DNA of 57,681 nucleotides from Bacteroidia bacterium (GTDB lineage Bacteria > Bacteroidota > Bacteroidia > M30B66), in NCBI GenBank assembly GCA_019695235.1, contig JAIBAI010000013.1, forward strand, positions 1 to 57,681, in the 5' to 3' direction. Positions within the stretch are counted from its first letter, which is position 1; every line of letters starts with the position of its first letter. The translations under genes and the position numbers were made by a program. Below are positions 2,849 through 37,862 of this stretch, one piece after another. The notes under the pieces are model-generated. The model worked only from the letters and a program-made list of their open reading frames with translations, was not told the origin of the DNA and did no database searches.

Positions 2849-2887
2849 GAAATAGTTTAAAGAATTCACATGAACAACCAAAAACCA

Positions 2888-3691
2888 TTAACTTTTTGAT
2901 AATTCCTTCGCCCTTTGTTCAGCCTTGAAAATAGCTTGTTGTAGGTTTTCGCCGATTTGTTGTTCTTCGAAGACACGAAATGCCGCTTCTGTGGTGCCGC
3001 CCTTTGACGTTACCGCATGAATTAGTTCATCAAGGCTTTGTTCAGCCTGGTTTATCAAATGAAATGAGCCGTTCATTGTTTGCTTTACCAACATAGCTGC
3101 AACTCCTTCGTCAATACCCATCGCCTTTCCGGCTTCAATCATGTGCTTTACGATATAGAAGAAGTAAGCCGGTCCGCTGCCGCTCAATGCAGTTACGGCG
3201 TCTAACTGCGACTCCTGCTCCATAAAAACGGTTCTTCCTGTTGTTGACAGCACGTGTTCTGCTTTGCGCAATTGCTCTGCACTTGTTGCCGGATGGGCAA
3301 TCAATGCAGTAACTCCCATACCCAATCCGGCAGGAGAATTAGGCATTGCTCTTACCAATGATTTGTGTTGAAGCAGGTTTTCAAGATAAGCAAGTGTAAT
3401 ACCTGCCATAATGGAGAGTACCACAATACCAGGCTTTAGGTGTTGCTGAAGGCTTTGTGCCAATGCCGGAAAATCTTGCGGCTTTACGGCTATCAGTATC
3501 AGCTCGCTCTCACCAATTGCAGCATTGTCAGGGGTAACCACTGTTCCCAATCGTAGCTTTTCAAGCTCTTCTACCCGATGAGCGTTTTTCTCAACCAACA
3601 GTAATTTATCGGCTTTGATGATATCGTATTTTATAAAGGCCCGGGCATAAATAAGGCCCATATTGCCACAACCTACCAGCGTGATGCGCAT
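2888..3691 (-). CDS. proC: Pyrroline-5-carboxylate reductase ProC
   Basis: Catalyses the last step of proline synthesis, reducing 1-pyrroline-5-carboxylate with NAD(P)H in the cytoplasm. The 267-residue protein opens with the Rossmann motif MRITLVGCGNMGLIYARAF (GxGxMG). It has the conserved VRAMPNSPAGLGMGVTAL segment and the signature DAVTALSGSGPAYFFYIVKH, followed by the C-terminal dimerisation helices with TSKGGTTEAA. Length is normal. It lies 12 nt downstream of the large metalloprotease gene on the same strand, so co-transcription with it is possible although the functions are unrelated. The ATG fits the family start. Confidence 0.95.
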   Translation of the reverse strand: MRITLVGCGNMGLIYARAFIKYDIIKADKLLLVEKNAHRVEELEKLRLGTVVTPDNAAIGESELILIAVKPQDFPALAQSLQQHLKPGIVVLSIMAGITLAYLENLLQHKSLVRAMPNSPAGLGMGVTALIAHPATSAEQLRKAEHVLSTTGRTVFMEQESQLDAVTALSGSGPAYFFYIVKHMIEAGKAMGIDEGVAAMLVKQTMNGSFHLINQAEQSLDELIHAVTSKGGTTEAAFRVFEEQQIGENLQQAIFKAEQRAKELSKS

Positions 3692-3703: not shown

Positions 3704-6700
3704 TTAATGAGATTCATTTGAAGAACGTAGTACCAGCTTGCCACTGCCCTGCACAAGCTGTTCTGTGACCAGTGTATAGAAATAGATACCACTTTCAAGT
3801 CCGGCAGCAGACAGCATTACCTGCTGCAAGCCTCTTCCGGCAACAGGTATAGAACGTACCATTCTGCCATCAATTGAATAAAGGAGAATCATTGCAGAAC
3901 TTACGCCCGAAGGAATATAACACTGAATACTCGTTTGCGATGTAAACGGATTGGGCCGGGCATGCAGCATATACCCATTGCTGATTTCTGCCTGTTTAGT
4001 AGCAATATCAATAGTTACCTGACGTGTGCCTGCTGCCCATGTGCTGTCGCCACAGGCATCCTGGGCAGGTATTACCATGCAGGCATAGCTTGTGCTGGCG
4101 CTGATTAGCGGAGGGTCATAAGTGGCGGCTTCTGCGCCCTCAATGGCTACCCAACGACTGGCAGCAATAGCTGTTGCTGTTACAACCAGGGTGTCGGCTG
4201 CATACCATTGGTAGGAGAAATTTGTTGCTCCGTCGGGCAATGTTTCAAAGTTAATTGGGTCGGGGTCGCCCATGCTAACGAAGTACTGATCGTTTGCTTC
4301 GAGGGCACCATAGCTAACTTCCGGAAGTAGGTTGATTTGCTGGCATCCTTCGGCCCATTGAGCCGTGCCGCAACCAGGGTTCCCGCCCGGTGTAATCATT
4401 ACGGCAAAGCTGCGGGCTGTGTTAATACTGCCCGGAGCAATGCTGCTTTCTGTGTCATCTCCTATCGGTGTCCAGCCTGTAGTGTCATCACCCGAAGGAC
4501 AGTTTACATTCGTTCCGGGCTTGTAATACCATTGGTAACTGTATAAACCAGAGCCGGAGGGCAGGGTTTGCATATATACCAATTCGGCATCATGATTGGG
4601 ACAAACCGCCTGATTCCCGGAAGCCACTTCACCCGGGTCGAACAAAGGTAAAACGCGCACCTGAATGCAACCTTCAGCCCAGCTACCTTCCTGCATAAGG
4701 CCACCTAAAGAAATGAAACAAGCAAAGGTGATGTCTTCGGTTTGTGCCCCGGGGGTATAAACTGAGTCGGTAGCACCTGAAATGACAATCCATTCAGGTT
4801 TGTAGTTGCCAATAGGGGCATCGTGAATACCCAAACGGTAACACCAGCGGTATTGGTAATTCCTGCTGCCGGGTTGGCCGCCGCTTTGCCCTCCCCGATA
4901 CGGCAGACTGTCGAAATGCAATTGAGCAGGAACTCCACCAAAGCAGATTGTTGAATCAGTTCTTGCAAGTTTTCCGGTGTCGAACCAACTGGAAACAACC
5001 ATCACCTGTTTGGCACCGCTTGCCCAGCCTGCACTTCCGCATGGAGGATTCCCCAATGGACTTACAAAGCAGGCAAAAGTGGTGTTTTGGGTAATGGGTC
5101 CCGGGTCAAAAGGCATGGTAGTCCCTGCCGGAATGAGTGTCCAGCCTGCCGTTGAGGTGCCTGTAGGTGCAGCAGCCAGTCCGGTTTTGAAGTACCATTG
5201 ATATGCAAATCCACGGTCGCCGGCGGCTTGCGGGTAGAGACTTAAGAAACCCGGGCTGGTACCACTAAGGACTGTCATGCTGCCATAGGAAAAACCTCCA
5301 TTGCTTGCAGCGGGAAGTACAATCGTATAATGAGCACCTGCCGCCCAGTTAGGGTCACCTGAACCGTAGCTTACCTGACAGGCATAGGTGCGACTTGCCT
5401 GAAGGCCTGCAGGTGGGGTGTATTGGTTGCTGGTGGCGCCGTTTACGGCAATCCAGCCACTACTGAACTGACCCAGCGGGGGGTTGAACACCCCCACCTT
5501 ATAGTACCATTGGAATTGGGGGTTGCTTCCGTTGGGCAGCACCGCAAACCCGGCTTGGGTTGCGCTGCCTTCATAGCAGATAGTATCTCTGATGCCGGCA
5601 ACGATGCCTGCCAAAGGAGACGATTCTTTAAACACCAGGCTATAATCTTCCGCCTGACCCAGCTGGAAGGGGCCGCAAGGCTGCGGGTCAGTGTTTGTCT
5701 GTGCATCGCTGATGACCCGCAGCCTTATCGGCGTCGCCAGCGACGCATTCACCGGAACGGTGAAGGCCCCGTTGTGTGTTTGATAATTTGTATTCCCGTT
5801 TGATGAAAATATTTTCTCTGAAGGCTCAAAAGTGCCGTTGTTGTTGTAGTCAATATATGCACGTACGTTTTGAGGTCGCACCTGGGTACTTACTGAAATA
5901 TTGTAGCTGACATTCCTGAAAAGGGTATCCTGCTGAGAGCATGATTTATCTAAAAGTGCTCCTTCAAAAAGGGCATAGGTACTTGAAAAGTCAATATTGT
6001 TCAGTTTTACCCTGTTGATACCAACACCCGAATAGGTGGTTGAATCCAGCAGTACCGGGGTACAGGCACTCGCCGGAAGCGTACCCGGAGGCAGCCAGGC
6101 AATAGAGTTCATCAGGGTGCTGCGCAGCGAAAATGCTGCAATAAACCGTTCACGTTGCCCAGGGGTGAAACGGTTCTTACAGCTTGAGTAGTTCATGATA
6201 TTGAACTGAGTATTGTTGTATGACTGGCCGGTACAGGGGTTGGGGTCAGTCGGACAGCCACTTGGGCGCCGGTGGGGCTCGGTATCGCACACCATATCAC
6301 CCCAGGTAGCGCAGTCTCTGGAGGTATCAGGGCATGCACTGCCATCGTTATCACCTTCGAAGGTATGTTTTAGGTTAAAACCATGGCCAAGTTCATGCGC
6401 GAGTACGGTATTAAGGCTATTGATAGAGCTAACCCGAATTACAGTGCCGTCAATACTGGCACCTGCACCCGGATAATAGGCGTAGCCTTCATAGCTTTGG
6501 ATGGAATGTACCACCCAAATATTGTAGTAGTCGGTATTTGGCCAGCGACTCAGGTTTTTGATGCTCAGATCGGTGGCGTAGCCTACACCACCAGTTGACG
6601 AAACCCCTTTCTCTGCATAACCTGGAACTACACTACCATCAACACGTAAGATTCCGTTAGTTGCCTGGCAATCAGGGCTTCTACGTGCGAGTACAAATTT

Positions 6701-7588: not shown

Positions 7589-8862
7589 AACCCTGGAATT
7601 TGATTCAATATTTTATTGTATTGCTGGCCTTTTTAGCCAGAAATACTAAAGCAGAAATCTGGAAAGACTCAGTATATCGTTCGTCAATTCATACGGTGAT
7701 GCTTCAGATAAAAGGGGCTGAGGGAACTTTCCCGATTATTGAACTGGGCAGCGGCGATCAGTTTTATCTTCAATTCGATGACTTGGATACCGAGCAGAAG
7801 CAACTTTATTATACGATTGAACACTGCAATGCCGACTGGTCGTCATCGAATACCATGTTCTCTTATTATTTGCAGGGTCTTCAGCAGGATTTGATTCAAG
7901 ATTTCAGGTATTCGTTTAATACCCGCAAGCAGTACCTGCATTATGACCTGGTGTTCCCGAACGATCAGATGCGCATTATTTTAAGCGGCAATTATATTTT
8001 AAAGGTATTTGAAGACGGCGATCGTGATAATCTGGTATTAACACGGCGTTTTATGATTTACCAGAACCAGGTAAAGATTTCAGCCAAGGTGAAGCGTCCT
8101 TCGGTCATTGATTTGCGAGATACCCATCAGGAAGTAGATGCATTGGTACAATTAGAGCAGTATCGCGCCATTAATCCGGCCCAGAGCATGAAGCTGGTAA
8201 TCATGCAGAATTTCAGGTGGGACAATCCCATTCAGTTAAAACCTTTTGGCATAAACCAGTCGCAGCTCAATTACGACTACGACGACGGCAGTAATTGTTT
8301 TCCCGGAGGCAATGAATACCGTGCCTTTGACATCCGGAGTCTTCGACAGCAAAGTATTTCAGTACAGCGATTCGACCGCGAAGGAGAGTTGGTAGAGGTT
8401 ACGCTTTTGGCTGATCCGATAAGGCGTTTTAGGGAATATCAGTTTTTACAGGAGGCAAATGGTCGTTATTTTATTCGTAACAGCGACGGGGGAGGGGAGC
8501 CTGAAGTTGATGCAGACTATGCCTGGGTGCGGTTTCGACTGCCTTTTGAGGCACCTTTAAAAGAGGGTAACCTTTTTTTGTTTGGCTCGTTTACCGACTG
8601 GCAATTGAAAGAGGCGTTCAGGCTCGAATACGATTTTAACTTAAGGGCGTATACAGGTCGTTTCTTACTCAAGCAAGGAATTTACAATTACAGTTATGCT
8701 TTTGGGGCTTCAAAAGGCAGCAAACCGGATGAAAGTTTCATAGAAGGGAGCTTTTACAATACCGAGAATGATTACCTGCTTCTTATGTATGGCAGGGCTT
8801 ACACGAATAATTTCGATGAGTTAATCGGAATAAGCAGGGTACAAACGCTGAGAGCACCCTAA
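7585..8862 (+). CDS. Type IX secretion system plug-domain protein (DUF5103)
   Basis: A 425-residue protein with a signal peptide (about 1-23) and the DUF5103 architecture: an N-terminal beta-rich domain (EHCNADW, PNDQMRIILSGNYILKVFE, RFMIYQ) and a C-terminal domain with LFLFGSFTDWQLKEAFRLEYD and the YTGRFLLKQGIYNYSYAF pattern. This family was characterised as the periplasmic plug that closes the SprA translocon of the T9SS in Flavobacterium johnsoniae. Length matches the family. It is coupled to the pore-like gene in front of it. Together with the T9SS cargo genes in the window, a secretion role is likely. Which SprA partner it serves cannot be seen here. Confidence 0.85.
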   Translation: MKPWNLIQYFIVLLAFLARNTKAEIWKDSVYRSSIHTVMLQIKGAEGTFPIIELGSGDQFYLQFDDLDTEQKQLYYTIEHCNADWSSSNTMFSYYLQGLQQDLIQDFRYSFNTRKQYLHYDLVFPNDQMRIILSGNYILKVFEDGDRDNLVLTRRFMIYQNQVKISAKVKRPSVIDLRDTHQEVDALVQLEQYRAINPAQSMKLVIMQNFRWDNPIQLKPFGINQSQLNYDYDDGSNCFPGGNEYRAFDIRSLRQQSISVQRFDREGELVEVTLLADPIRRFREYQFLQEANGRYFIRNSDGGGEPEVDADYAWVRFRLPFEAPLKEGNLFLFGSFTDWQLKEAFRLEYDFNLRAYTGRFLLKQGIYNYSYAFGASKGSKPDESFIEGSFYNTENDYLLLMYGRAYTNNFDELIGISRVQTLRAP

Positions 8863-10117: not shown

Positions 10118-12223
10118 TTACTTAGTGTTGTACAAAATAAATGAATACACATCAGCGCTGATAGCAATAGATTTACTGAGTGCGGTTCCGGCGCCATGAC
10201 CGGCATCTGTTTCAATGCGTATTAACACCGGCATACCGGCGGTTTGGTTTTGCTGAAGTGCCGCTGCAAACTTATACGAATGAGCCGGTACCACTCTGTC
10301 GTCGTGATCAGCAGTGGTTATCAGTGTTGCCGGATAAGGGGCGGGGGTTACATTGTGCAGCGGAGAATATTCGAGCAGGTATTTGAACTGAGAGGCATCG
10401 TCAGATGAACCATATTCGCTTACCCAGCCCCAGCCGATGGTAAACTTCTGAAACCGCAACATATCCAATACACCTACCTGGGGAATGGCAACCCTGAATA
10501 AATCGGGTCTTTGGGTCATCACTGCGCCAACGAGTAAGCCCCCGTTTGAACGCCCCTGAATTGCAAGTTTTGAGGGCGAGGTGTATTGATTGTTTTGAAG
10601 GTATTCGGCACAAGCAATAAAGTCGTTGAATACATTTTGTTTTTTCTCCAGCATACCTGCTTCGTGCCAGTGTTTACCGTATTCACCGCCCCCACGAATA
10701 TTCGCCAGCACATAAACACCACCACGCTCAATGAACGCAATCAGTGCAGGGTTAAACTGGGGCCTGATACTGATGTTAAAGCCCCCATAACCATATAACA
10801 GGGTAGGGTTGGTGCCATTGAGTACAAGCCCTTTTTTACAGACAATAAAGATGGGGATGCGTACACCATCAGCTTCAGTAACAAATTCCTGCTTTACCTC
10901 CAGCTCATCAGGGTTAAATTTTAACGGTGGTTGGCGGAAAATACGGGAGGTTTTGTGTTTAATGTTGTAGCTGAATATTAAAGGTGGAGTATTAAATGAT
11001 GTATAAGAATAAAAGACAACACTGTCTTCCTTTGTGCCTGAAAACCCATCTGTTGTCCCCAATCCGGGCAGTTGTATCTCATGTTCGCGTTCTCCTTTTA
11101 GAGAGTATTGGTAACACCTGCTTGTTACGTCAACCATATACTGGAGAAATAGCTTTCCACCGGCACTAGTAACTTGTTGTAGGATGTTTTTGTCTTCTTT
11201 TATCAATTCAACCCAGTTGTCTTTCGAAGGTTTTTTGGGGTCAACCAATACAAGCCGGTAATGGGGGGCACCTTCATCGGTAAGAACAATCAGTTTCCCG
11301 TGTTGGTGGTCAATTACACGGTTTTTATTTCGAAAACCGGTAAAGAGGGGTTTAAATTGTTTGTCGCCTGATTTGAGGTCGCGGTACCAGGTTTCGTAGC
11401 CATCTGTTCCTTCGCTGATGGTGAGCAGTTGAAAACGACCGTCTTCTGTGGCGCTTAAACCATGATACCGAAGTGGATGCTCCATGTCATGGTAAATCAA
11501 TTTGTCTTTTTCCTGACGCTCTCCCAGTTTGTGGTAATACACACTGTGGTGTTTATTGATACCTGACAGTTCATTGCCTTTATCAGGTGCGGGATAACGT
11601 GAATAATAAAACCCTTTTCCATCCCATGTAACTGCTGAAAATTTTACCCATCGAATTACATCAGGCAGTTCTTTGCCTTGCATATCCCGTATGCGGATTT
11701 CAGACCAATCGCTACCTGCTTTGCTATGATGCAGGGCGACATATTTTTTGTCTTTCGAAAATGATGCAATTGAAACTGATTCTGTTCCGCCTTTGCTTCT
11801 GGCAGAAGGGTCAAGGAACACCGACTCCGGGCCATACAAGCCTTGCTGCTGGTATAAAACAGGCTGTTCCTGCAAGCCTGAATTTGCTTGAAAGAACAGA
11901 TACTGCCCACACACCGAAGGTACTGACCAACGGGGGAAATTGGTTAGCTCGGTGATGCGTGCTTTGATTTCGTTTCTGAATGGTATCTGCGCAAGGTATT
12001 CATTCGTGACTTTGTTTTGTGCTGTAACCCAAGTACGTGTGTCAAGTGCGGTGTCATTTTCGAGCCATCTGAAAGAATCACTTACCGAAATACCGTGGTA
12101 TTTTTCAGTAACTGGGTCTTTTCTGCTTTCAGGGTATTTGATACGCTCAGGTGTTTGAGCATACACATCCAACTGAGTGCATACAAGCAATCCTGATATA
12201 ATCAGACACTTTGCAAGCCACAT
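10118..12223 (-). CDS. Prolyl oligopeptidase (S9A family), exported
   Basis: Cleaves after proline in short peptides. The 701-residue protein has a signal peptide (1-22, ending DVYAQ), an N-terminal seven-bladed propeller (about 80-420) and a C-terminal alpha/beta-hydrolase domain. The catalytic triad is S559 in GRSNGG, Asp in TADHDDRVVP (641/642) and H676 in DAGHGAG. YGYGGFNIS and NIRGGGEYGKHWHEAG are typical of the family. Full length. The ATG overlaps the TAA of the M16 peptidase gene by one base (TAATG), so the two are translationally coupled. The signal peptide places it in the periplasm or as an anchored envelope enzyme, probably digesting peptides released by the partner protease. Confidence 0.94.
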   Translation of the reverse strand: MWLAKCLIISGLLVCTQLDVYAQTPERIKYPESRKDPVTEKYHGISVSDSFRWLENDTALDTRTWVTAQNKVTNEYLAQIPFRNEIKARITELTNFPRWSVPSVCGQYLFFQANSGLQEQPVLYQQQGLYGPESVFLDPSARSKGGTESVSIASFSKDKKYVALHHSKAGSDWSEIRIRDMQGKELPDVIRWVKFSAVTWDGKGFYYSRYPAPDKGNELSGINKHHSVYYHKLGERQEKDKLIYHDMEHPLRYHGLSATEDGRFQLLTISEGTDGYETWYRDLKSGDKQFKPLFTGFRNKNRVIDHQHGKLIVLTDEGAPHYRLVLVDPKKPSKDNWVELIKEDKNILQQVTSAGGKLFLQYMVDVTSRCYQYSLKGEREHEIQLPGLGTTDGFSGTKEDSVVFYSYTSFNTPPLIFSYNIKHKTSRIFRQPPLKFNPDELEVKQEFVTEADGVRIPIFIVCKKGLVLNGTNPTLLYGYGGFNISIRPQFNPALIAFIERGGVYVLANIRGGGEYGKHWHEAGMLEKKQNVFNDFIACAEYLQNNQYTSPSKLAIQGRSNGGLLVGAVMTQRPDLFRVAIPQVGVLDMLRFQKFTIGWGWVSEYGSSDDASQFKYLLEYSPLHNVTPAPYPATLITTADHDDRVVPAHSYKFAAALQQNQTAGMPVLIRIETDAGHGAGTALSKSIAISADVYSFILYNTK

Positions 12224-34469: not shown

Positions 34470-35753
34470 TTAAGGCAGTTTCAGGAAATTATCGAAATAT
34501 TGCTGCCGTGTGGTATCCTCCCAGTGTATCAGGTAATAGCGGTATTGGTATATCTGAAATTGGCATAGCATTACCAGCACAGTCAAAATGATCAGACGAG
34601 GTATACGTTTTTTTTGTTGACTGAGCCATGTTGTAAGGGGCAGCGCAAAGAGAGGCAGGTATTCAACCAGTACCCTTGATGAAAAACTCCCCCCGTACCA
34701 CCAGTTGTTCCATGATGATAAAATAATACAAACCGCCAGCATGTAAACGAACCAATATATAGCCCGGAAGCGCGATTTGTGGTACAAGCTCAATAGACCC
34801 AACACCGCAATAAGAAGAATAGGGGTATATAAAAAAGCACCTTTTTTGAAGCTGAATAAAAAGTCAAACAGGTGAGGAGGGCCGAAGTGTTCTCCTGGAT
34901 AGGTATCAATAAAAAGCACACCGGTTTGCATGTACCACAATAATGGCTGGATAAAAGCAATTGCAATAAAAATCAGAAGTGGAACTAAAAGGCGGATACC
35001 TGTATCTTTTATTTGTCTGAAAAAGGTGATTTCATTTTCAATAACAAGCGGGAAGCTTGCCAAAAGAATAACATTCATTGGCCTGACCAATACAATGCAA
35101 CCCGCCACAAGTGCTATTGCCAGTATTGTTTTGGCTTGTGTTTTTTGAGCCCATTGCTGAATCAATAAAAGATAACATGTTGCTAAAAAGAAGGAATAAA
35201 TATGCGACATGCCCGGTTCAATGACCGCATAATAGAACAGGTTGGTGCCAAATAAAAGTACCGGAAGGATGATTGCTACGATAGTATCACCTGCTCCTGC
35301 CCGGGTTAATATACGACCAAGCAACCATAAGCCAGCCAGTGCATAAAAGAGTGCAGCAAGAGAAATAAACACCGGATATAGATAGGAGTAACCATCTGTA
35401 GGCCCCCCCCATATCCAGCTTCCCAGATGAGCAGCCAGAAAGAAAGGAAGTTCAAGAAAGGCCGTCCCGACTGAATATTTGTTTACGGTTTGCCTGTTAA
35501 CCTGTAAACGGTAATCGAACCATGTTTCTGGAGTCAGGTATTTTTGTTCAACGGTATCAAAGAATCCGAAATGGATATCCTGGTAAATAAAAACTGCCGG
35601 AAGCCAGGCATAATATCCCTTTGCATCAGCTTCGATAACGGAAGGCGAATATTTCTCAGGCCAGTTGAGGTTGATTGTGGTAAGTAACAAAATCAGTGCA
35701 GACAGCACCCATGTGAGAAACTGTGGTTTTGCTGAATACATGAATTTGCTCAC
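34470..35753 (-). CDS. Polytopic membrane protein, GT-C/family 39-like glycosyltransferase
   Basis: 427 residues with about ten to eleven hydrophobic segments. After the first segment comes VIEADAKGYYAWLPAVF, placing acidic residues in the first periplasmic loop as in GT-C enzymes that use lipid-linked sugars. Later loops contain LLFGTNLFYYAVIEPGMSHI and SSWNNWWYGGSFSSR. No family-defining catalytic motif beyond this is clear, so the transferase assignment is tentative. The start is GTG (35753) or the ATG four codons inside; a TATCTTTG box lies 24 nt before the GTG. A run of eight C (eight G in the coding strand) lies at 35403-35410. Confidence 0.75.
   Translation of the reverse strand: MSKFMYSAKPQFLTWVLSALILLLTTINLNWPEKYSPSVIEADAKGYYAWLPAVFIYQDIHFGFFDTVEQKYLTPETWFDYRLQVNRQTVNKYSVGTAFLELPFFLAAHLGSWIWGGPTDGYSYLYPVFISLAALFYALAGLWLLGRILTRAGAGDTIVAIILPVLLFGTNLFYYAVIEPGMSHIYSFFLATCYLLLIQQWAQKTQAKTILAIALVAGCIVLVRPMNVILLASFPLVIENEITFFRQIKDTGIRLLVPLLIFIAIAFIQPLLWYMQTGVLFIDTYPGEHFGPPHLFDFLFSFKKGAFLYTPILLIAVLGLLSLYHKSRFRAIYWFVYMLAVCIILSSWNNWWYGGSFSSRVLVEYLPLFALPLTTWLSQQKKRIPRLIILTVLVMLCQFQIYQYRYYLIHWEDTTRQQYFDNFLKLP
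35403..35410. repeat. G8/C8 homopolymer in the GT-C-like gene
   Basis: Eight consecutive C on the plus strand, coding WGGP in the minus-strand gene. Slippage here would shift the frame near codon 116. Confidence 0.7.
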
Positions 35754-35777
35754 ATTTTATTCGACGGCAACATTTTT

Positions 35778-35785
35778 CAAAGATA
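35778..35785 (-). promoter_or_regulatory. -7 element TATCTTTG of the GT-C-like gene
   Basis: Exact TAnnTTTG match on the minus strand, 24 nt before the GTG start at 35753. Confidence 0.45.
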
Positions 35786-35809
35786 GGTATTCAAGGCTTG
35801 TAAGTGACA

Positions 35810-35859
35810 TTTCGCCCCGCTGGGGCTAGAAGGATTTCGCTCCGCTGGGGCTAGAAGGA
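35810..35859. repeat. Tandem 25-bp palindromic (REP-like) repeat, two copies
   Basis: Units at 35810-35834 and 35835-35859 differ at one base (CGCCCCGC versus CGCTCCGC). Each holds a GC-rich hairpin (GCCCC-GCT-GGGGC in unit 1) followed by CTAGAAGGA. They lie just past the 3' end of the transposase gene, and degenerate copies lie on its other side, as in REP/RAYT loci. Confidence 0.8.
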
Positions 35860-35884
35860 TGGAAGTGGCTACAAACAATTAGCA

Positions 35885-36385
35885 CTATGACTTAGCATCA
35901 TGATTGTTTAGCTCCGAAGGAGCGGCACCAAAATCTTCAAAAATGTATTCGGGTCTGAATTCTATTTGATATGCTTCTAAAAATTCAATGTACTCTTGTC
36001 TGAATGTTTTCTTTTGGTGGTGATCTTCCTGATTAAGAATGTATTTGACCTCCGTTTGAATTTGCGATTGTGCTACAGAAAATGCCCCAAATCCTGCTTG
36101 CCATTCGAATTTACCTGTTACCAATTTGTTTTCATTTATCCATTTCGACGAATTGGCTTTAACATCCCGAATCAAACCGGAAAGATTGCATTCGGGTTTT
36201 AACCCGATGAGTATATGAATATGGTCGGGCATACCGTTGATGATCATCAGTTTTTGGTTTTTGTTGGTGATGATACCGGTGATGTATTGGTACAAGTTCT
36301 CTTTCCATGATTTAGCCATGAGATTGGCTCTGCCTTTTACGGCAAATATTACATGTACGTATAATTGGGTGTAGGTATATGGCAT
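35885..36385 (-). CDS. IS200/RAYT-type Y1 HUH transposase
   Basis: A 166-residue single-strand DNA transposase. The HUH motif is H55-I-H57 in MPDHIHIL; the catalytic tyrosine is probably Y115 in VKYILNQEDHH, with the conserved N..HH after it. The W-rich KFEWQAGFGAFSV motif is also present. Size and the flanking palindromes fit the REP-associated tyrosine transposase (RAYT) branch rather than a mobile IS200/IS605 element with TnpB, which is absent. All catalytic residues are present, so it may be active. The 3' end of the coding region itself carries a GCTCC-GAA-GGAGC palindrome (35911-35923) that encodes AAPSEL. Such enzymes in other genomes nick and shuffle REP hairpins. Confidence 0.88.
   Translation of the reverse strand: MPYTYTQLYVHVIFAVKGRANLMAKSWKENLYQYITGIITNKNQKLMIINGMPDHIHILIGLKPECNLSGLIRDVKANSSKWINENKLVTGKFEWQAGFGAFSVAQSQIQTEVKYILNQEDHHQKKTFRQEYIEFLEAYQIEFRPEYIFEDFGAAPSELNNHDAKS
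35911..35923. repeat. Palindrome inside the transposase 3' end
   Basis: GCTCC (35911-35915), GAA, GGAGC (35919-35923). Same 5-bp-stem, 3-nt-loop design as the external repeats but another sequence. Confidence 0.6.
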
Positions 36386-36403
36386 GATTCGTTTTTATTA
36401 ATG

Positions 36404-36447
36404 TTTCGCCCCGTTGGGCCTATGTTGATATCGCCGGGGCTAGGTGG
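36404..36447. repeat. Degenerate REP-like copies upstream of the transposase
   Basis: TTTCGCCCCGTTGGGCC (36404-36420) and TATCGCCGGGGCTAGGTGGA (36428-36447) are diverged copies of the 25-bp unit found downstream. Together the copies bracket the transposase gene. Confidence 0.6.
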
Positions 36448-36586
36448 ATGCTTCTTTCACGTCGTGAGGCAAATAGTAGCGCACAACCGCGTCAGGAGCG
36501 GCATTAATGGTATCTTTTGCTTTTACCGGGTTAACATGCGTAAAAAAATGTGGGTTATCATTAAATAGCGCCGATAAAGTATGGTT
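36440..36586 (-). pseudogene. Gene remnant adjoining the palindromic repeats
   Basis: A minus-strand frame of 48 codons with protein-like composition: NHTLSALFNDNPHFFTHVNP, then VKAKDTINAAPDAVV, then RYYLPHDVKEAST and a stop that falls inside a repeat copy (GGGGCTAGG). It has no start codon. The APDAVVRYYLPHDVKEA part resembles the linker after the propeller in exported sortilin/VPS10-like proteins (APGxxVxYYLPxxxxE). It looks like an internal piece of a gene cut by repeat insertion, with the rest deleted. The match is from memory of family patterns and is weak. Confidence 0.35.
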
Positions 36587-36635
36587 TTATATCATTGAGA
36601 TTGCTTTACGACATAATTCGCTGTCACCTCAATTC

Positions 36636-37862
36636 TCATTCTTCATAAATCAGGTATTTCTTGCGTATTTGGTTAAATTTAATTAAATCGTTTTTCCATG
36701 AATCGCTGATTTCCTGTTCGGTTTTGCCTGCTATGATTGCTTTGCGCAGCTTGTCGGTGCCGGCGTGTTGGTCGAATGTTTTTGTAAAAAAGACATTCTT
36801 GTCTTTTGCTGCCTTGTACATATTGAGCAGCCAGAATAAATAAACCTTGCGTGAATCACGGATAAAATTCTCACCAAAACCGTTCAGGTCAAAGCCGGTA
36901 CATTCTTTTCCTTCGTACATCGGATGCTTGCTTCCACGTACCGGTTGGGGGGTGAAATGGTATTTTCCTTCTGAGCATCCGGGGAAGCCGATTTTTTCAA
37001 ATGGATTTGCGGTCCCACGACCAACGCTTACCGTAGTACCTTCAAACAAACCCAGTGAAGGGTACAAGTAGATGGCATTCATAGTCGTAAGATTCGGTGA
37101 GGGAGCTGTGGTAATCTGGTAGTAAAAGCGGTGTTTCCAGCCTTTGCAGGGGATAACTTTCAAGGTGCTTTTTACTTTTCCTTTCAACCATCCTTCGCCA
37201 TTCACCATTTGGGCATATTCACCCACCGTCATCCCGTGCACAAGGGGCACTGGGTGCATGCCGAGGAAGGAGCGAAAAGCAGTATCCAGCACCGGCCCGT
37301 CAACATAATGGCCATTCGGGTTAGGACGGTCGAGCACATAGAAAGGGATTTTTTGTTCAGCACATGCTTCCATCACGTAAGTCATGGTGCTGATATAAGT
37401 ATAAAAGCGGACACCCACATCCTGTATATCAAACACCACCAGGTCAACATCCTGAAGATGTTCCGGGAGAGGTTTTTTCTGTTTCCCGTAGAGTGAAACC
37501 AGGGGGATGCCTGTTTTGGCATCCTTGCCTGAGGCAACGTGTTCACCCGCATCGGCATCGCCTCTAAAGCCATGTTCAGGAGCAAAGACACAGTTTATTT
37601 TTAGTCCTTTGCTCAGGAGGGTATCTACCAGATGGGTTTTGCCGATGAGCGATGAGTGGTTGGCTACCACAGCAATTCGTTTTCCTTTAAATTCAGGCAG
37701 ATACAGGTCCATTTGGGAGGCACCGGTTTGCACTTCTTTGTCGCTCACTATTACCAATTCGGTTCTGTTGGGGTTTTGTGCATTGATAAATCCGGCAAAA
37801 AAGAAGGCAAGAAGGAGAAACCCGGGGCATTTATTACCTTTCGGGCGCTTAATATAATTCAT
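36636..37862 (-). CDS. DUF1343 exo-beta-N-acetylmuramidase (NamZ/YbbC-like)
   Basis: A 408-residue exported enzyme of the NamZ group, which removes N-acetylmuramic acid from the non-reducing end of peptidoglycan fragments. An N-terminal signal segment (about 12-28, FLLLAFFFAGFINAQ) is followed by the family motifs RIAVVANHSSLIG, VFAPEHGFRGDADAGEHV, LVVFDIQDVGVRFYTYISTM, FYVLDRPNPNG, HPVPLVHGMTVGEYA and the C-terminal GFDLNGFGENF region. Length is typical. It is transcribed divergently from the LolC/E-like gene with only 6 bp between the two start codons, so promoters must lie within the neighbouring coding sequence. Likely role: cell-wall recycling or use of foreign peptidoglycan. Confidence 0.92.
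   Translation of the reverse strand: MNYIKRPKGNKCPGFLLLAFFFAGFINAQNPNRTELVIVSDKEVQTGASQMDLYLPEFKGKRIAVVANHSSLIGKTHLVDTLLSKGLKINCVFAPEHGFRGDADAGEHVASGKDAKTGIPLVSLYGKQKKPLPEHLQDVDLVVFDIQDVGVRFYTYISTMTYVMEACAEQKIPFYVLDRPNPNGHYVDGPVLDTAFRSFLGMHPVPLVHGMTVGEYAQMVNGEGWLKGKVKSTLKVIPCKGWKHRFYYQITTAPSPNLTTMNAIYLYPSLGLFEGTTVSVGRGTANPFEKIGFPGCSEGKYHFTPQPVRGSKHPMYEGKECTGFDLNGFGENFIRDSRKVYLFWLLNMYKAAKDKNVFFTKTFDQHAGTDKLRKAIIAGKTEQEISDSWKNDLIKFNQIRKKYLIYEE

Follow-up and report, generated by a model that had tools for sequence, protein, structure and literature searches.

The tnpA locus and its hairpin units

The window analyzed here is a stretch of 57,681 nucleotides (nt) from a Bacteroidia bacterium genome (NCBI GenBank assembly GCA_019695235.1, contig JAIBAI010000013.1), and this report concerns a transposase gene on its reverse strand, tnpA (positions 35885-36385), together with the short hairpin-forming repeats around it. 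The gene encodes 166 amino acids (aa) and was identified by Pfam and NCBIfam matches, motifs and a structural model as a Y1 HUH transposase of the subclass 1.2 type. A preliminary description, made from the sequence alone, had presented it as a RAYT-like gene (RAYT, tyrosine transposase associated with repetitive extragenic palindromes, REPs) bracketed by REP-like palindromes. A Y1 transposase lying within hairpin repeats of its own is what we found, but the protein is not a canonical RAYT.

The predicted protein matched Pfam PF01797 (Y1_Tnp; E 2e-26) and scored above the cut-off of the NCBIfam IS200/IS605 model (65.2 bits, cut-off 55) and below that of the NCBIfam model for REP-associated transposases, REP_Tyr (31.7 bits, cut-off 80). 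The catalytic HUH motif (DHIH, H55/H57) and Tyr115 are intact, as had been described; H55 and H57 are invariant and Y115 nearly so in an alignment of 24 sequences that includes the window protein. The best solved matches to its predicted structure (pLDDT 85) were the TnpA proteins of ISDra2 and IS608, and the REP transposase 4er8 ranked thirtieth.

Five units were recognized at the locus, all given here as read on the reverse strand. Downstream of the gene are two direct units, GCCCC-AGC-GGGGC followed by a 12-nt linker GAAATGTCACTT (35802-35826) and, in tandem at 25 nt, GCCCC-AGC-GGAGC with the linker GAAATCCTTCTA and one stem mismatch (35827-35851). These correspond to the two near-identical 25-bp units of the preliminary description (35810-35834 and 35835-35859), which are real: they differ by one base, and 100 dinucleotide shuffles gave a chance expectation of none. 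The two upstream units reported earlier are likewise real and degenerate. One is direct, with the imperfect hairpin GGCCC-AAC-GGGGC and the linker GAAACATTAATA (36396-36420), and DNA homology with the related locus L037 starts here; the second (36421-36440) has a shortened hairpin and the linker GATATCAACATA. The fifth unit, which is inverted, forms the coding 3' end of tnpA (35911-35935) and consists of the tag GATTTTGGTGCC and the hairpin GCTCC-TTC-GGAGC, the hairpin proper (35911-35923) beginning where 39 nt of the 501-nt frame remain. Folding energies of the window hairpins were unremarkable (z -0.5 to -1.3 in three stretches), and we credit these hairpins because they are conserved among relatives rather than for their stability.

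Assignment to transposase subclass 1.2

In the accessible parts of Quentin et al. (2018; PMC6006769), subclass 1.2 transposases are described from Bacteroidetes and Cyanobacteria as proteins of about 150 aa (median 148) with low copy numbers and the motifs Y---Q--HH, DH[IV]H and WQ. The window protein resembles them in motifs (YILNQEDHH at the catalytic tyrosine, DHIH, and WQ), in length and in copy number, its genome having two Y1 genes that are 46% identical to each other. The Y---Q--HH motif was matched in 23 of 24 relatives (loci L037-L060), with a small departure from the published DH[IV]H motif in the form of N in place of D in 10 of the 24 and DHLH in two. A profile of the subclass found matches at E 1e-3 or better, weak ones counted, in 193 of a sample of 392 genomes of the window's phylum.

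Canonical RAYT identity was considered for the window protein and rejected. Its REP_Tyr score is below the cut-off, its hairpins have no GTAG tag, and NQEDHH stands where RAYTs have the motif NP(L/V)(R/K)xG adjoining the nucleophilic tyrosine, as given in the available portions of PMC2817692 and PMC8266576.

The same classification, in its accessible text, lists subclass 1.2 as "REP: no" and mentions "atypical" structures in Bacteroidetes for subclass 2.6 (PMC6006769). In the literature that we searched, which left most subscription papers outside it, no repeat was attributed to subclass 1.2 and no function for it was found in print; a Chryseobacterium transposase gene called "RayT" is mentioned near an efflux gene in the accessible part of PMC11194056.

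A 25-nt hairpin unit at subclass 1.2 loci

The flanks of 112 subclass 1.2 genes were compared, comprising a first set of 26 (the window gene, its paralogue and the 24 relatives) and 86 further loci that were not used to see the pattern. The 89 loci beyond the first set were 29 automatic best matches and 60 hand-picked from the better-scoring part, such that low-scoring members are not represented; from the resulting 115 distinct loci L063, L071 and L145 were dropped, no gene being found there by motif search, and L062 duplicates the window. A hairpin was scored as a 5-bp stem with a loop of 3 or 4. As controls we used 20 Y1 loci, hand-picked as weak matches from the same genomes and not placed on the tree.

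In the first set, 25 of 26 loci had a hairpin within 300 nt of the gene, and 18 had them on both sides. Across all 112 genes the density of 5-bp GC-rich hairpins within 300 nt was 5.56 per kb, compared with 0.20 in shuffled flanks, 0.45 at 900-1500 nt and 1.08 at the control Y1 genes; 99 loci had at least one hairpin within this distance and 67 had them on both sides. The 86 further loci alone gave 5.08 versus 0.49 per kb, with hairpins on both sides at 49 and none at 12. The published trait of lacking hairpin repeats thus does not describe these genes, and we propose that the statement be corrected, membership of the subclass being taken here from the motifs. The REP search of Quentin et al., in the part of that work available to us, was automatic and accepted only fully paired stems of 7-20 nt accompanied by GTAG or GTGG (PMC6006769), so 5-bp units without such a tag would escape it.

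Stacked by loop orientation, 420 units gave the consensus A-[GCYCC-RNN-GGRGC]-GAMATRTTWRTA, in which hairpin and tag make up the 25-nt unit. Its GC-rich stem has 5 bp and its loop, which is asymmetric, 3 nt; the strict form adds the tag of 12 nt. On the opposite strand this reads as a 12-nt 5' tag followed by the hairpin, which is REP geometry with a different tag: where a REP would have GT[AG]G at the 5' foot, the unit frequencies show only A at -1, with the 12-nt linker at the opposite foot.

Orientation mostly differs between the two sides of the gene. Of the hairpins within 400 nt upstream, 158 were direct, 61 inverted and 29 unclassified (158 of 219 classified direct); downstream the counts were 68 direct, 134 inverted and 38 unclassified (134 of 202 classified inverted). 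The nearest pair was direct/inverted at 33 of 41 classifiable loci, and at 22 of 28 among the 86 further loci. The gene thus usually stands between units of opposite orientation, as RAYT genes do, and adjacent like-oriented units are mostly spaced by 25 or about 50 nt.

Of the 112 genes, 28 have the strict tagged form GCNCCRNNGGNGCGNNATNTT within 1500 nt (69 matches in 326 kb). Neither a strict unit nor a linker-anchored one was present at the 20 control Y1 loci (65 kb), and as far as tested the tagged unit is specific to subclass 1.2. As a check on circularity, we anchored the search on the linker ATRTTWATA alone, with no stem required. Of the 112 linkers no further than 400 nt from a gene, 58 then had a perfect 5-bp stem at one offset, compared with none or one at each of 13 other offsets; among linkers beyond 900 nt it was 2 of 23. 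The 58 stems come from 28 of the 112 loci and have 16 different sequences in which all five positions vary and still pair, indicating that pairing has been kept through compensating changes. At most loci, those of the window gene and its paralogue included, the tag of the hairpins has diverged.

Could the hairpins instead be RNA elements, such as terminators or mRNA-protecting stems at gene ends, that have nothing to do with the transposase? Some inverted pairs in genus g10 (L183, L185 and L188) look like strong bidirectional terminators, with a folding z of -8.3 at L188, and a terminator scan of the window stretch returned 3 sites versus 1.2 (sd 1.0) in shuffles; a promoter scan of the stretch found 2 versus 3.3. 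The roughly twelvefold lower hairpin density beyond 900 nt and the absence of the tagged unit from the control Y1 loci speak against this explanation, as does the strand specificity of loop and tag, and an Rfam scan of 35600-36800 returned nothing at gathering level. We consider it improbable that RNA function accounts for the hairpins; terminator use looks secondary.

Units away from the transposase genes

The preliminary description suggested that the transposase may still act on repeats elsewhere in its genome, an idea that it tied to the 25-bp unit occurring there. That did not hold up for the window genome (2.83 Mb in 116 contigs, an assembly that may hide repeats). With up to three mismatches allowed, the window unit had three matches with 0-1 mismatch, all at the locus, and four others with 2-3 mismatches, equal to the four of a reversed control. 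The generic stem pattern GCYCCNNNGGRGC occurred at 27 sites, of which 20 were on contig C99, three at the window locus and four elsewhere with other sequences. A third pattern gave 22 one-mismatch matches versus 10 in the reversed control; two were the known units and the other 20 were not unit-like by eye. With its upstream units degenerate and no copies found elsewhere, we read the window locus as an insertion that is probably quiet.

The 20 sites on C99 belong to the second subclass 1.2 gene of this genome (L061, on the 15.6-kb contig C99), which has a private hairpin array of 20 copies within 8.3 kb (2885-3204, 3775-3999, 8086-8411 and 11130-11142), next to a gene whose product has DNA gyrase B domains. 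The repeats are 47-48-bp units with the hairpin GCCCC-TAC-GGGGC, unlike that of the window and confined to C99; seven lie on one side of the Y1 gene, five on the other, seven about 4 kb further on and one at 11.1 kb. The case for local amplification is stronger for this array than for the window locus.

Certain other genomes do have such units at scattered, mostly intergenic places. In 19 genomes of the relatives a strict pattern matched 48 times in 13 genomes with no control matches, 33 of the 48 falling inside the gene loci by coordinates. A similar strict pattern searched in 25 genomes, the window's included, gave 80 matches in 10 genomes, and its reversed form gave none in all 25. In G137, G234, G348 and G412 most units are separated by over 2 kb from every Y1 gene among the matches listed. 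We inspected 20 stretches, hand-picked from three of the ten matching genomes so as to avoid Y1 genes, and 20 of the 23 copies in them lay outside open reading frames (ORFs) of at least 90 aa; the other three were in one 98-codon ORF that is possibly not a gene.

These distributions bear on a second alternative, that the locus is an ordinary IS200-type insertion sequence whose left and right ends are the two hairpins. The fold is the same, the closest solved relatives are ISDra2 and IS608, and the IS200/IS605 model scored above its cut-off; the homology with L037 also has its limits at the upstream hairpin and shortly after the coding-end one, and the window contains an extra block. However, known IS200/IS605 elements have no terminal inverted repeats, as stated in the accessible text of PMC2817692, whereas the nearest hairpins here are mostly in opposite orientation. 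Subclass 1.1 elements, moreover, occur as near-identical copies (PMC6006769, Table 1, in the part available), in contrast to the two divergent Y1 genes of this genome, and G137 has 13 strict units versus at least 2 Y1 matches. We regard an ordinary insertion sequence as unlikely, if the least unlikely of the alternatives considered.

A four-hairpin element without the gene

An intergenic stretch of genome G234 (genus g10) was compared with 121 genomes of that genus, and the element in it was matched at other places in other species. At the orthologous intergenes of seven species, in which both flanking genes are close together, the element was missing in all seven; the orthologous sites L227 and L228 hold other hairpins. 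Fourteen copies were aligned (L188 and 13 others from 12 genomes), a few of which share flanks and are not independent. They have four hairpins in the order direct-direct-inverted-inverted, starting at 0, 50-53, 81-99 and 133-150 nt, and the whole element is 146-163 nt long; in L240 and L241 the first hairpin is imperfect and was not scored. In G234 itself, tnpA is preceded by two direct hairpins at a distance of 51 nt from each other; after the gene comes an inverted hairpin and, some 50 nt beyond, a degenerate one. This layout is like that of the ends of the element, which therefore resembles a transposase locus minus its gene.

The composite also bears on a third explanation, in which tandem arrays arose by replication slippage beside a decaying transposase and the protein was not involved. 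Arrays such as the 47-48-bp series on C99 could expand in this way, but slippage leaves unexplained the inverted bracketing, the single units on many contigs and the composite element in other species. As an account of the whole we find it very improbable.

Proposed mechanism and relation to known systems

Taken together, the locus is quite probably a REPtron-type, hairpin-mobilizing transposase system on another Y1 branch, subclass 1.2, with another repeat. Comparison supports a REPtron-like way of working. A TnpA dimer would recognize the stem, loop and tag of a unit in single-stranded form, bind there and nick beside it through the HUH/Tyr site. Units or unit pairs might then be copied or moved in trans, while the tnpA gene itself would seldom move and would spread mainly by horizontal transfer. 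This is apparently an unrecognized REP-transposase-like system of a second type, and it appears to be quiet in the window genome. The fuller picture, in which subclass 1.2 is a separate, widespread system that reads a 25-nt single-stranded unit, brackets itself and drives gene-less four-hairpin elements, and in which the window copy is intact, quiet and carries an absorbed unit, has in our judgment only marginally better than an even chance of being right.

Several points weigh against the REPtron-type interpretation. At 13 of the 112 loci a perfect hairpin is lacking within 300 nt, and 84 are without the strict tagged form within 1500 nt; the tag may not be general, and its presence at 28 loci only has slightly lowered our confidence. 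The strict pattern was empty in 15 of 25 genomes, and in the window genome the three patterns found the unit at its own locus only. The loops that define orientation were selected after inspection of the data, and 67 near-gene hairpins with other loops are unclassified. Binding, cutting and strand preference are deduced from fold and motifs, slippage could enlarge tandem arrays without any transposase, and a given dispersed element is tied to a given tnpA by shared architecture. Other Y1 genes of the same genomes, for example those of subclass 2.6, are covered through the 20 control loci only.

As in the RAYT/REPtron systems described in the accessible portions of PMC2817692 and PMC8266576, a Y1 gene lies here between inverted hairpin repeats that in some genomes are also dispersed between genes, and the same sources describe a Marinomonas REP with a 5-bp perfect stem and important loop bases. 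Unlike those systems, subclass 1.2 has units without GT[AG]G, with a 12-nt AT-rich tag where any tag is visible, no NP motif after the catalytic tyrosine, and far fewer unit copies found: the high-copy intergenic dispersal of REPs is absent from the window genome, and copy numbers are modest in some others. Gene-less inverted hairpin doublets recall REPINs (REP doublets forming hairpins) and BIMEs (bacterial interspersed mosaic elements), but the element described above has four units in direct-direct-inverted-inverted order and was seen in genus g10, whereas the window genome showed none. IS608 and ISDra2 of subclass 1.1 share the fold and active site and differ in hairpin orientation and copy number, and no conserved 4-nt guide was seen 5' of the hairpins here.

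A transposase group published in 2018 as hairpin-free thus has a repeat of its own, and with it a testable substrate. How small repeats are kept up as populations by low-copy transposases can now be studied in a second system, and the four-hairpin composite would explain a repeat family of the G234 genus.

The coding-end hairpin

The hairpin in the coding 3' end of tnpA had been described as having the geometry of the flanking units and another sequence. Its position was confirmed, but we read it as a unit of the same family, inverted, rather than as a different element. It sits where several relatives have their first downstream unit; in these relatives (for example L040, L042, L044-L046 and L050) the stop codon is 4 nt ahead of that unit. 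Five of the 112 genes end in a hairpin. Four of them, the window gene included, fall in one five-row group of the tree (support 93) whose fifth row, L064, has no hairpin, and the remaining one, L076, stands apart, such that two changes are needed. The reading frame through the hairpin is identical in all five, in the window, L037, L038 and L039 and separately in L076 (GAAPSEL, GAAPTEL, GVAPTEL, GVAPTGL and AAPTEL). The simplest history suggested by these sequences is that the first downstream unit was taken into frame through loss of the original stop. From the hairpin onward the protein tail was modeled with low confidence (block means 57 and 40) and is probably disordered.

Probable insertion and horizontal transfer

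The 882-bp stretch between the genes that flank tnpA (35754-36635) is read as an insertion. In L244 and L248, from other genera of the same family, the same two genes, a NamZ gene (PF07075/PF20732) and a 427-aa gene, abut or overlap by a few bases. Synteny was informative in these two of nine family members, the second gene being unmatched in the stretch of the other seven. The 427-aa neighbor is a predicted membrane protein; a glycosyltransferase assignment was dropped, as it had no Pfam match. Besides tnpA and the units, the gap contains an open stretch of 43 codons (36443-36571, reverse strand), for which we found no Pfam match, no second copy in the genome and no source.

Copies of tnpA in other genomes of its own family are at most 51% identical to that of the window. 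A 76%-identical copy was found in L037 (Ignavibacteriales), where the DNA is 78% identical over 520 bp; the similarity begins at the upstream hairpin and stops shortly beyond the coding-end one. Judging from these comparisons the window gene likely arrived horizontally. A phage or plasmid vehicle was tried and rejected on viral and plasmid searches: none of 58 viral candidate stretches was confirmed, with three weak phage records at no more than 27.6% identity, and two of 22 plasmid records covered at least 80% of the query.

Elsewhere in the subclass, nearly identical transposases occur in different families, in L047 and L048 (Chryseobacterium and Pedobacter) and in L087 and L088 (two families), with long shared stretches beyond the gene; these pairs point to horizontal transfer. 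In L044 (2011-2959; similar flanks in L045 and L046) the ORF ahead of tnpA continues into the first hairpin unit, as though the element had broken it, and the surroundings, which we take to resemble a type I restriction locus, comprise modification, specificity and RhuM-like ORFs followed by a restriction subunit. By eye, higher-order repeats of a few hundred bases flank the gene on both sides in L054 (Candidatus Brocadia) and L055 and lie upstream of it in L056, each built of several different hairpins.
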